Part shown: positions 33,459 through 36,883 of the stretch, piece by piece | How positions within the stretch are numbered: position 1 is the stretch's first letter | Layout of the letters: each line of letters opens with the position of its first letter | Assembly (NCBI RefSeq): GCF_030734285.1 | Contig: NZ_CP132294.1 | Coordinates: 1,612,001-1,676,000 of the forward strand | Direction: 5' to 3' | Origin: Natronococcus sp. AD-5 | Lineage (GTDB): Archaea > Halobacteriota > Halobacteria > Halobacteriales > Natrialbaceae | DNA length: 64,000 bases | Notes under the pieces: generated by a model | The model's input: the letters and a program-made list of their open reading frames with translations, nothing else | Told to the model about the DNA's origin: nothing | Databases searched by the model: none | Program-made: the position numbers and the translations under genes

Positions 33459-34349
33459 ATGCTGAATAGACGGCGGTTTATCGCAGGGACGAGCGCGGCT
33501 GTAGCCGGATCAGTCGCCGCATCGACGGGAGTCTGCGCGGACGAAACGGAGGCCGCTGCTGATGCCGATCGCAACGAGCGAGCGACGGTCATCGCGCACC
33601 GCGGCTTCGCCGAGACGTATCCCGAGTACACCGTCGCCGCGTTCGAACTCGCGGTTCAGGGTGGAGCCGACGACGCGGCGCGGATTGGATCGAACTCGAC
33701 GCGTTTCCGACGCGTGACGGCGAGATCGCGGTCTCCACGACTCGGAACTCGGCAGCCTGACCGACACCGAGGGAGTGCTCTACGAGACGCCCGCCAGCGA
33801 GGAGTTCGCCGCCGAAGTGCTCGAGAGCGGAGAGACGATCCCCACGCTCGACGAAGCGATGGAGGTCGTCCCGGCGAACGTCGGCGTCAACATCGACATC
33901 GAGGAAGGCTCGCCCGACGTCCAGTTCGGCCGCGTCGACGACCCCGAGGCCGAGCGGGAGGGAGTGGACGTGGCTCGAGTCGGTTGTCGAGATCGCGACC
34001 AGCTACGACAACGAGTTGTTGTTCTCGATGTTCTAGGAGGGCGCGCTCGCGACCGTCCGCGACATCGATCCCGATCTGCCGGCAGCGTACCTGCTCTACG
34101 ACTCCATTCAGGAGGACTCGACGTCACCGACGAGTACGATACCGACGCCGTCAACCCGCCGCTGGAGAAGATCTACGGGACGCCGCTTTTCGACGGCGAC
34201 GCCTACGAGGAGATCGATCTCGTCGCCGAAGCGCACGAACGCGATCTGCCGGTCACCGTCTGGACGATCAACACCTGGTACGAGGTCGAGCGATTGATCG
34301 ACGCCGGCGTCGACGGGCTCTTTCTCGATTACTCCGAAAGCGTGAGGTA
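33459..34349 (+). pseudogene. Broken glycerophosphodiester phosphodiesterase (UgpQ-like) with Tat signal
   Basis: It starts normally with MLNRRRFIAGTSAAVAGSVA (Tat) and the catalytic VIAHRGFAETYPEYTVAAFE. After about 33690 the reading shifts: DWIELDAFPTRDGEIAV, then another shift to HDSELGSLTDTEG, then ETIPTLDEAMEVVPANVGVN, another shift near 33960, a TAG stop at about 34034 (LLFSMF-stop-EGALATVRDI). A correct end follows, HERDLPVTVWTINTWYEVER and GVDGLFLDY. These are the GDPD family motifs (HRG, E-x-D, TIN). At least three indels and one stop disrupt it, so it cannot be functional. It would have hydrolysed glycerophosphodiesters outside the cell. Confidence 0.85.
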
Positions 34350-34445
34350 CCTACTCGGCCGGCGAATAGCCACTCCTCGCCGCGGCTGTTCGAGAACGAT
34401 ACGCTTCTCGGAGTACCGTACCGGACGAAAGGGAGAAACGACGGC

Positions 34446-34601
34446 TGGTGGCGCACTCGACGCCGGAGCAGGTGGCCGCCGAGCGGGTGAGGGTGGGTGT
34501 CGGTCGAACGACGTGGCAGGGTGCCTGGCTGTGGGGAGCGCCGTCCCGCCATCGATATCTAGCGGAGGGCGTGTAAAGTCGTTCATCCCAAAATATGTTG
34601 G
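34446..34601. repeat. G-rich hairpin element, copy B
   Basis: It keeps the order of copies A and C: GGTGGCGCACTCG, a partly paired stem arm (CACTCGACG with CGCCGAGCG, two mismatches), a G tract GGGTGAGGGTGGG, GGTCGAACGACGTGGCAGGG, and a distal GTAAAGTCGTTCATCCCAAA before TGTTGG. It is the most diverged copy and lies between the broken phosphodiesterase gene and the 3' end of orc1. Confidence 0.7.
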
Positions 34602-34690
34602 TGAGCCGCTCGTTGTACCGTTCCGACAGTCGATAGTACGATCGACGCGGCGACGGAAGTACTCCCGGTATCGGCTTCGCGATCCGCCGA

Positions 34691-35893
34691 TCAGACCTCC
34701 GTTTCGGCGCAGGCGGCCAGGATCACGTCGGGATCGTCGAGGAGACGATTCTCCATGTAGTTGCCTTTCCCCTTGCCGGCCCACTTGCGCTCCTGGTCGA
34801 TGATCGAGAGAAACTCGAGTTCGGAGAGGATATCGCGGACCCGGCGGAGTTTGAGCGGGTCGGAGCTCTCCTGGGCGCAGACGCGCTGGTAGACGTCGTA
34901 GACCTCGGTCGTGCGGACGGCGGCGTCGCTGTCGTCTGCCTGCTGGACCAGAAACGCCATCGCCTCGAGCACCATCTTCGCGTGACTCGGCGACTTCGAG
35001 ATGAGTTCCGCGAGCCGACTGGTCTCTTCGCGCTCGTGGGCCTGATCGACGCAGTCCTCGGTCACGGCGTCCATCCCCTCCTCTTCGGCGATCTCGCCGG
35101 CGAATCGGAGGATGTCGATCGCCTTGCGCGCGTCGCCGTGTTCGCGCGCCGAGAGGGCCGCCACTCGCGGGATGACGCTTTCCGCGAGGACGCCCTCGTG
35201 GAAGGCGTCCGACCGGGAGGTGAGGATCTCCTGGATCTGCGTGGCGTCGTAGGGGGCGAACACGTACTCGCGCTCGCAGAGGCTCGATTTGACGCGCTCG
35301 TTCAGCGACTCCTTGTACCGAACCTTGTTGCTGATCCCGATGACGCCGACTTTGCTCGACTCGAGTTTGCCCGATTCGACGGCCCGCGAGAACTGCATCA
35401 ACACGTCGTCGTTTTCGATCTTGTCGACCTCGTCGAGGATGACGAGGACCACGTCGTACAACGCGTCGGTGATCTGCCAGAGGCGCCGGTAGTATTCGGC
35501 CGTACTCAACCCGGAGTGCGGGATCGAGACGCCGGTTCGGTCGCGGTCGTTGAGCTGGTGGGCGATCGACTGGACGACTTGCGTTTCCGTCGAGTCCTGG
35601 AGACAGTCGACGTACGTGACGCCGATCGTGACGTCGTTGCGGTCGGCGCGGTCGATCGCCTGGTTGGTGATGAATTTCGCACAGAGCGATTTGCCGGTGC
35701 CCGTCTTCCCGTAGACGAGCACGTTGTTCGGCGTATTCCCGTGGGTCGCCGGTTTGATCGCCGTGGCGAGATTCTCGAGTTCCGCCTGCCGACCGATGAT
35801 CCGATCGCCGTCCGGTAAGTGCGAGACCTGCAAGAGCTCCTTGTTCCGGAAGATCGCCGTCTCGCTTCCGAAATAGTCAACCGAGTCGGACAT
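34691..35893 (-). CDS. orc1: Orc1/Cdc6-family replication initiator
   Basis: 400 residues. AAA+ ATPase: Walker A GKTGTGKS at 62-69, Walker B VVLVILDEVDK near 150, sensor 1 GVIGISNKVR near 190 and a sensor 2 arginine region HGDARKAID near 265. The C-terminal winged helix (TTEVYDVYQRVCAQESSDPL, RRVRDILSELEFLSII) contacts origin DNA. It binds origin boxes, loads the MCM helicase and starts replication. It faces away from the adjoining repeat array, as is common for haloarchaeal orc1-linked origins. A TATA-like TTTTAAGAA read on - at about 35923-35931 lies right before the start, giving a near-leaderless message that overlaps the origin. Haloarchaea usually hold several orc1 genes; this one's origin type is specified by the box sequence. 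Confidence 0.93.
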   Translation of the reverse strand: MSDSVDYFGSETAIFRNKELLQVSHLPDGDRIIGRQAELENLATAIKPATHGNTPNNVLVYGKTGTGKSLCAKFITNQAIDRADRNDVTIGVTYVDCLQDSTETQVVQSIAHQLNDRDRTGVSIPHSGLSTAEYYRRLWQITDALYDVVLVILDEVDKIENDDVLMQFSRAVESGKLESSKVGVIGISNKVRYKESLNERVKSSLCEREYVFAPYDATQIQEILTSRSDAFHEGVLAESVIPRVAALSAREHGDARKAIDILRFAGEIAEEEGMDAVTEDCVDQAHEREETSRLAELISKSPSHAKMVLEAMAFLVQQADDSDAAVRTTEVYDVYQRVCAQESSDPLKLRRVRDILSELEFLSIIDQERKWAGKGKGNYMENRLLDDPDVILAACAETEV

Positions 35894-35934
35894 TACTTTG
35901 GCCTATCATTCTACGGCGCATTCTTAAAACGTTC

Positions 35935-36228
35935 GAACCGCGTTTCCGCTGTAAGAACGCGATTTCAGGGCGTTCAGGCCCTCTTCACCACGGAACACAC
36001 CCCTCGTTGCCGCTGTATACCGAGTCAGTAGACCCCTCATTTCCGCTGTATGTCCGGAGAGAGGACCCCGGAATGCCGCTGTATGCGACGGGATTTTGGA
36101 TCGCCGTCGAGGAACCTCATTTCCGCTGTATAAGTTTGAGTTGTACGGAATGAGGCACTGTAACACGCCAATCCCACCCCGGAGTGCCGCTGTATCGATC
36201 GCACACACACCCCGCGTTGCCGCTGTAT
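35935..36228 (+). repeat. Array of seven origin-recognition-box-like repeats, + orientation
   Basis: Consensus ACCCCTCGTTGCCGCTGTAT; invariant part CCGCTGTA. Twenty-base boxes start at about 35935 (degenerate), 35999, 36032, 36065, 36112, 36176 and 36209, so start-to-start distances are 64, 33, 33, 47, 64 and 33. The complement reads ATACAGCGGCAACGAGGGGT, with the G-run typical of archaeal origin recognition boxes. Expected binding sites for the neighbouring Orc1. Confidence 0.85.
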
Positions 36229-36451
36229 GGGTTCGGTGGTAGGTTCGAGTCGAACGGGAGGGGTTTGCTCGAAGACTGACGCAGTTATCCGGTGGACGCG
36301 GACGGTAGGATGGATCGAGAGTGAGTGACATGGCGATCTGAGAAGGGGAAGACGAGCGAAGTAGCCTTGCGAGAAAGGGGACGAGTTCATCGCGAGCGGG
36401 AAATCCGCGTTCGAGACCGTTCGAACTCGATCGCGTTCGAGGTACTCGGCG

Positions 36452-36479
36452 GAATTTTACAAATCACGCTTATTTATAG
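36452..36479. other. AT-rich duplex-unwinding element candidate
   Basis: The local base composition drops sharply (AATTTTACAAATC…TTATTTATAG) within otherwise GC-rich DNA, between the left and right box clusters. Confidence 0.5.
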
Positions 36480-36613
36480 ATGCCCATTCTATCCGATCGA
36501 ACTGCCGACTCCAACTCCGAATTCCGGTTCTGTGGGCGGGACTGCAATCCGAGCTGCCGTGGCGCTCGAAAAGGCACTCGAGTCGACTGGCCGGCTCCCG
36601 ATCCCCTGCCTGC

Positions 36614-36633
36614 ATACAGCGGCAACGAGGGGT
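36614..36633 (-). repeat. Inverted origin recognition box 1
   Basis: ATACAGCGGCAACGAGGGGT, an exact complement of the box consensus, followed by GTG. It is identical over 20 bases to the box at 36864-36883. Confidence 0.85.
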
Positions 36634-36863: not shown

Positions 36864-36883
36864 ATACAGCGGCAACGAGGGGT
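36864..36883 (-). repeat. Inverted origin recognition box 2
   Basis: Second exact inverted copy, again followed by GTGT. The spacing to the first is 250 bases. It marks the right border of the origin region. Confidence 0.85.

Follow-up and report, generated by a model that had tools for sequence, protein, structure and literature searches.

Upstream of an orc1/cdc6 gene of Natronococcus sp. AD-5, a 20-base box is repeated seven times in the same orientation, at steps of 64, 33, 33, 47, 64 and 33 bp. The locus raises the question of whether this array is part of a replication origin served by the neighbouring Orc1, and of what purpose such regular spacing might serve. We have approached both points by comparing the window, i.e. 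the whole 64-kb stretch of DNA that was analysed, with the rest of the AD-5 genome and with related loci in other haloarchaea.

Judging by its domains and relatives, the gene adjoining the array (P0001) is a genuine Orc1/Cdc6, as had been proposed in an earlier note made from the letters of the window. The protein matches TIGR02928 with 424 bits, against a cut-off of 181.3, and contains the Cdc6_lid and Cdc6_C winged helix domains of Pfam. According to phmmer, its closest relatives with solved structure are S. solfataricus Cdc6-1 (2qby_A, E=4e-61) and A. pernix ORC1 (2v1u_A, 2e-60). The AD-5 genome holds at least 11 TIGR02928 matches above the cut-off. Orthologues of P0001 with 77-100% identity are present in 62 of the 125 Natrialbaceae genomes searched, among them those of Natronococcus pandeyae, Natronococcus jeotgali, Haloterrigena salina, Haloterrigena turkmenica, Halopiger xanaduensis, Natronorubrum bangense, Natrinema thermotolerans and a Halostagnicola sp., and the next relatives follow at 58-68% identity. 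Of 391 genomes from the class, just 80 have relatives at E<=1e-150, and all relatives with at least 77% identity are confined to one family. By this distribution, P0001 does not appear to be the Orc1 of the oriC1 type, which is conserved in all haloarchaea. In Natrononativus amylolyticus, Natronosalvus rutilus, Natronosalvus halobius and Natrinema versiforme, the orthologous locus is carried by plasmids of 294-768 kb. As the loci are found both on chromosomes and on plasmids of this size, the predicted origin family of the P0001 type can be regarded as a portable origin module.

The seven direct boxes of the earlier note, all ending in CCGCTGTA, and the steps between them were reproduced exactly (Table 1). 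Its list left out two perfect inverted copies, boxes 8 and 9, even though their sequence had been quoted; they sit 0.4-0.65 kb past the direct array. The ends of the boxes read GGGGT or GGGGTGTGT, and all seven direct and both inverted boxes have a G-string. On either side of an AT-rich element, the G-strings aim away from it. The lowest-GC 40-mer of the orc1 upstream region, at 36453-36492, has 28% GC. In the window, CCGCTGTA occurs 11 times, compared to 1.1 expected, a count reached by 0 of 100 shuffles. Within the AD-5 genome, the box forms an array solely at the orc1 locus: the 5.17-Mb sequence contains seven copies of the 20-base box with 0 mismatches, all in one 885-bp stretch at this locus, and copies scattered away from orc1 amount to one singleton with a single mismatch (C1:2510766). 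The window gave no matches in scans for Rfam families and tRNAs. Elsewhere in the window, positions 33459-34803 hold a sequence that, from its translation, we take to resemble a glycerophosphodiester phosphodiesterase; it appears broken over reading frames, and is probably a pseudogene or affected by sequencing errors.

Table 1. Features of the orc1 locus, in window coordinates.
Feature	Position	Strand	Basis
orc1/cdc6 initiator gene (P0001, 400 aa)	34691..35893	-	TIGR02928, Pfam, phmmer
TATA-like element TTTTAAG, putative orc1 promoter, touching box 1	35923..35929	-	59 orthologues, consensus beside box 1
Direct box 1, proximal triplet, weak G-string variant GAACC	35935..35954	+	sequence
Direct box 2, proximal triplet, step 64	35999..36018	+	sequence and orthologues
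Direct box 3, proximal triplet, step 33	36032..36051	+	sequence and orthologues
Direct box 4, middle box, number and position differ among genomes	36065..36084	+	
Direct box 5, opens distal triplet, weak G-string variant GAACC	36112..36131	+	
Direct box 6, distal triplet, step 64	36176..36195	+	sequence and orthologues
Direct box 7, distal triplet, step 33, extended G-string ACACACCCC, facing AT-rich element	36209..36228	+	
AT-rich conserved DUE-like element TTCGAGGTACTCGGCGGAATTTTACAAATCACGCTTATTTATA	36436..36478	+	low GC and conserved motif
Inverted box 8, perfect ATACAGCGGCAACGAGGGGTGTG on + strand	36614..36633	-	
Inverted box 9, same as box 8 over 23 bases	36864..36883	-	

The upstream region of each orthologue was scanned with a weight matrix built from the nine window boxes, at a threshold set on shuffled sequence to about 0.1 false site per locus, and spacing was not used in the scan. 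One of the 62 orthologues (L083) was excluded for a misplaced start codon, leaving 61 loci. Of these, 59 contain two triplets among their direct boxes, each with a step of 63-65 bp followed by one of 32-34 bp; in the other two loci, just the distal triplet is incomplete. In the 59 orthologues, box 1, which opens the proximal triplet, starts at a distance of 38-43 bp upstream from the orc1 ATG; in every one it is abutted by a TATA-like element, whose own start is 32-37 bp from the ATG. The other end of the array is also the same in 59 of 59 cases, consisting of the distal triplet and then one or more inverted boxes, and the middle boxes in between number from 0 to 14. Each triplet is built to one plan, namely a weak box, an AT-richer linker of about 43 bp, a strong box, a 12-bp linker and another strong box. 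In the first box, the G-string has a weak form (GAACC or xxACC instead of ACCCC), and the AT content of the 43-bp linkers is 0.52, versus 0.43 for the region. Box 7 and the inverted boxes have the extended G-string, with a conserved ACACAC extension. In Natrarchaeobius chitinivorans AArcht7 (L025 / L105), the direct boxes have multiplied to 20, most of them following each other at 33-36 bp, and the array is still framed by both 63-64/32-33 triplets.

In 46 of the 59 loci, the 40-mer of lowest GC in the upstream region falls in the interval from the distal triplet to the inverted box. The AT-rich element has a recognizable motif, TtC.AtacacT.A.TGgac..T.ACacAg.a.t.gTATTTA, which is matched at 21 or more of 34 positions in 56 of the 59 orthologues (24/34 for the window copy), compared to a maximum of 19 in shuffled sequence. 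As TATTTA is TATA-like, the element could also hold a promoter.

The spacing of the boxes has been held much more tightly than the sequence between them. Among the orthologues, the gaps are 63.5+/-0.56 and 32.2+/-0.39 bp in the proximal triplet and 63.1+/-0.34 and 32.2+/-0.52 bp in the distal one, and they differ by at most 2 bp even where the Orc1 proteins are less than 85% identical (559 locus pairs). Between genomes, the median identity of the proximal spacers is near random, at 0.36 for the 43-bp and 0.33 for the 12-bp spacer. In the distal triplet, randomisation of the spacers has gone less far (0.44 and 0.75), and the shorter spacer owes its conservation to the extended G-string within it. 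The distance from triplet to triplet ranges from 80 to 619 bp. Spacers compared within one locus are likewise near random, with an identity of 0.32, and tandem duplication was therefore ruled out as the origin of the pitch. On neither strand does the box score rise at +31 to +33 of the 63-bp gap, as it would over a degenerate fourth box, so that the 32-bp slots do not form one unbroken filament. The phased array of the earlier note thus stands as far as non-random spacing at about 3 and 6 turns is concerned, but its uniform 33-base iteron gives way to two 63/32 triplets with a variable middle.

Seven boxes placed randomly over the same span would yield two 62-65/31-34 triplets with a probability of 3e-4, and five gaps near multiples of 32.3 bp with a probability of 2.5e-5. 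Recurrence in orthologous loci is stronger evidence than these figures for the window: about 0.01 of 60 loci with two triplets would be expected by chance, and 59 were observed, with the reservation that orthologues share ancestry and hence are not 59 independent trials. Spacing within +/-1 bp in about 60 genomes, despite largely randomised spacer sequence, suggests that it matters for Orc1 assembly.

The steps of 63-64 and 32-33 bp correspond to 6 and 3 helical turns, and such whole-turn spacing, conserved independently of spacer sequence, is characteristic of a regularly phased direct-repeat array. In eight Orc1 clusters that use this type of box (weighted), the gaps between adjacent boxes on the same strand cluster at whole turns, with a Rayleigh value of 0.59 at 10.6 bp that was equalled by 0 of 2000 phase-randomised controls; among the periods tried, the maximum was 0.62, near 10.3. 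Phasing as a general trait of haloarchaeal boxes had to be rejected. The TTCCGGTG Orc1 family, a sister family with a different box and comparable divergence, has no phase preference (0.11 versus 0.62 for the P0001-type family, at 10.5 bp). The Orc1 relatives with 58-68% identity from other haloarchaeal families (L129-L145, L085-L089) share with AD-5 the box core, mostly TGCCGCTGTA (CCGATG in L085-L089), the proximal box beside the gene and the inverted boxes farther out, but have steps of 22/64/22/42, 22-23, 105/44 or 100/36 bp. The 105/44-type subgroup drifts (103+/-3.5 and 42.3+/-3.7 bp), and some steps, such as 100/36, are out of phase, which counts against binding to one face. In view of these sister spacings and of the shared ancestry of the clusters, the helical phasing that appears strong in the Natrialbaceae family is just suggestive beyond it.

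The type of box follows the orc1 clade, with CCGCTG, CCGATG and CCGGTG boxes accompanying different clades. In the recognition-helix region, the P0001 clade has LRRVRDILSELEFLS and the CCGGTG clade LRRVRDLLKEHAFLD. At residues about 345-366 of P0001, SEL is replaced by KEH in the CCGGTG clade (L084, L090-L103), alongside the change of the box core from CCGCTG to CCGGTG, and these substitutions are a candidate specificity code for Orc1 boxes. The pairing of box and orc1 homologue, together with the spacing, is kept in about 60 genomes. The separate origin class matched to its Orc1 that the earlier note had envisaged corresponds to a known haloarchaeal rule, described in the survey of Wu et al. 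2012 (PMC3528665).

The locus shares with archaeal origins of the ORB/Orc1-Cdc6 type an adjacent orc1, G-string boxes of which some are inverted, an AT-rich element between inverted boxes, and a box that is specific to the neighbouring Orc1 family. We predict that it is an Orc1-dependent origin of a Natrialbaceae family. Probably, Orc1 monomers would bind cooperatively on one face of the DNA, and the proximal triplet would autoregulate orc1. By analogy with other members of the family, the neighbouring Orc1 would bind the boxes, open the AT-rich element and load MCM, with box 7 and box 8, which flank this element and have the extended G-string, as the likely core for both steps. As the triplet steps amount to whole turns, Orc1 molecules would come to lie on one face and be able to make contact, and the constraint on length suggests that adjacent molecules indeed touch. 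The distal triplet may aid Orc1 assembly next to the unwinding element. The position of box 1 at the orc1 promoter suggests that Orc1, bound to the proximal triplet, represses its own gene, and the variable middle boxes might adjust affinity or titrate Orc1. The conserved phasing suggests that initiators must align on the DNA for replication to start.

In a more specific version of this model, Orc1/Cdc6 would assemble cooperatively and in phase on a composite unit of three boxes, set 6 and then 3 turns apart and present twice, and firing would depend on the length and not the sequence of the spacers. We advance it tentatively, with slightly less than even confidence. If true, it would make the locus an archaeal counterpart of bacterial phased DnaA/iteron arrays, and an evolvable one, with other clades using 2-, 4-, 6- or 10-turn steps. 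Higher-order Orc1/Cdc6 complexes are a matter of debate: cooperative binding has been described in Methanothermobacter and in A. pernix, whereas footprints obtained in Sulfolobus fail to support such assembly, which counts against the cooperative model (PMC5333045). Further points against it are the lack of a box within the 63-bp gap and the weaker randomisation of the distal spacers. The cumulative GC skew over 43 sampled stretches of the chromosome has a minimum around 1.62-1.76 Mb, which is within noise and too weak to mark an origin.

Alternatively, the direct array could be mainly a regulatory sink that titrates Orc1 and represses orc1, with the origin reduced to the core of box 7, AT-rich element and box 8. 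The spacing would then serve cooperative titration or handcuffing and not an opening assembly, but handcuffing is not known for Orc1 arrays. The contact of the proximal triplet with the orc1 promoter in all 59 orthologues would agree with such a role, and the variable number of boxes would fit a tunable sink; on the other hand, the distal triplet, which faces the AT-rich element, is as rigid as the proximal one. There is a precedent in H. hispanica, where a box-rich region beside cdc6E restrains oriC2, likely via titration, but this sink lies downstream of its gene and away from the origin (PMC3936714). On balance, we consider a mere sink unlikely. It is still less probable that the locus is a dormant or decayed origin, retained for another role of Orc1. 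Haloarchaeal genomes do have many orc genes, as the count for AD-5 illustrates, and intact-looking origins can be silent, two of the seven predicted H. hispanica origins having no ARS activity according to the 2012 survey (PMC3528665). Against dormancy, boxes, AT-rich motif and phasing are under constraint in about 60 genomes, and on the four separate plasmids the orthologous locus may be the origin of the replicon.

The spacing might also have no function and be a frozen accident that goes back to a single ancestor or to tandem duplication of a 32-bp unit. All orthologues come from one archaeal family with shared ancestry, and expanded arrays such as that of N. chitinivorans exist. However, an accident would hardly have kept lengths within 1-2 bp while the proximal spacers drifted to near-chance identity both between genomes and within a locus, while the gap between the triplets varied by hundreds of base pairs over the same time, and while sister-clade loci drifted by up to 12 bp; we regard it as very unlikely. 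That the boxes are operators of a different DNA-binding protein is scarcely credible. The box family tracks the Orc1 clade, and the winged-helix recognition segment changes accordingly. The cooperative origin remains our preferred reading.

Bacterial plasmid iteron origins have direct arrays of initiator boxes in helical register, close to an AT-rich region and the initiator gene. The AD-5 locus is similar in its regular direct boxes beside such a region and gene. It differs in having an Orc1/Cdc6 AAA+ protein instead of a RepA-type initiator, and in its two 63/32 triplets, variable middle and inverted box past the AT-rich element. Judged by its initiator, the locus does not belong to the iteron plasmid class, but its array may still function like an iteron array.

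Among haloarchaeal systems, the orc/cdc6-adjacent origin families of Wu et al. 2012 resemble AD-5 in their G-string boxes, inverted around an AT-rich element, in the adjacent orc1 and in a box sequence specific to the Orc1 family, whereas fixed spacing between boxes or triplets is not described in the main text (PMC3528665). H. turkmenica and H. xanaduensis were part of the 2012 genome set, so that the origin family itself has probably been catalogued already. The oriC2 and oriC2D of H. hispanica, with plasmid-like incompatibility as a shared trait, are like AD-5 in having many boxes beside the cognate cdc6 and possible control by titration (PMC3936714). The 11 ORBs within 722 bp beside cdc6E contradict the notion of the earlier note that haloarchaeal origins typically have fewer boxes; this cluster lies downstream of cdc6E and is itself no origin (PMC3936714). 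The AD-5 array is found upstream of its gene, with the orc1 promoter on one side and the AT-rich element on the other. Published work already covers the pairing of Orc1 and box families, multiple origins, G-strings, the movement of origins from one replicon to another, and a box-rich region that acts as a negative regulator (PMC3936714, PMC3528665). In the literature accessible to us, we found no description of fixed, phased box spacing. The same holds for the conserved, duplicated triplet; box-rich arrays and Orc1-paired families are known.

Some further observations concern other parts of the AD-5 genome. Isolated TGCCGCTGTAA-type boxes are found at G000:C1:3856354 and 3897251 and at G000:C2:33275 and 36854. 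In other haloarchaea, this form of box is used by Orc1 relatives, many of which are plasmid-borne; the copies in AD-5 are possibly leftovers of another origin. Downstream of a second orc1 on C2 (L003, G000:C2:378733-382857), TTTCCGGTG boxes at 2702-2911 of the locus have steps of 40, 80, 40 and 40 bp, which are regular, yet not whole helical turns. The ARS vectors of J7 (PMC5350488) were considered as proof of activity and set aside, the only informative match, by the forward primer of pFJ2, being to an orc1 locus of AD-5 other than that of P0001 (L013 / L007, G000:C1:3456439-3460920). The Orc1/Cdc6 encoded there is a 595-aa frame, in which the TIGR02928 match is split near residue 100-109, and this suggests an insertion, for example an intein.
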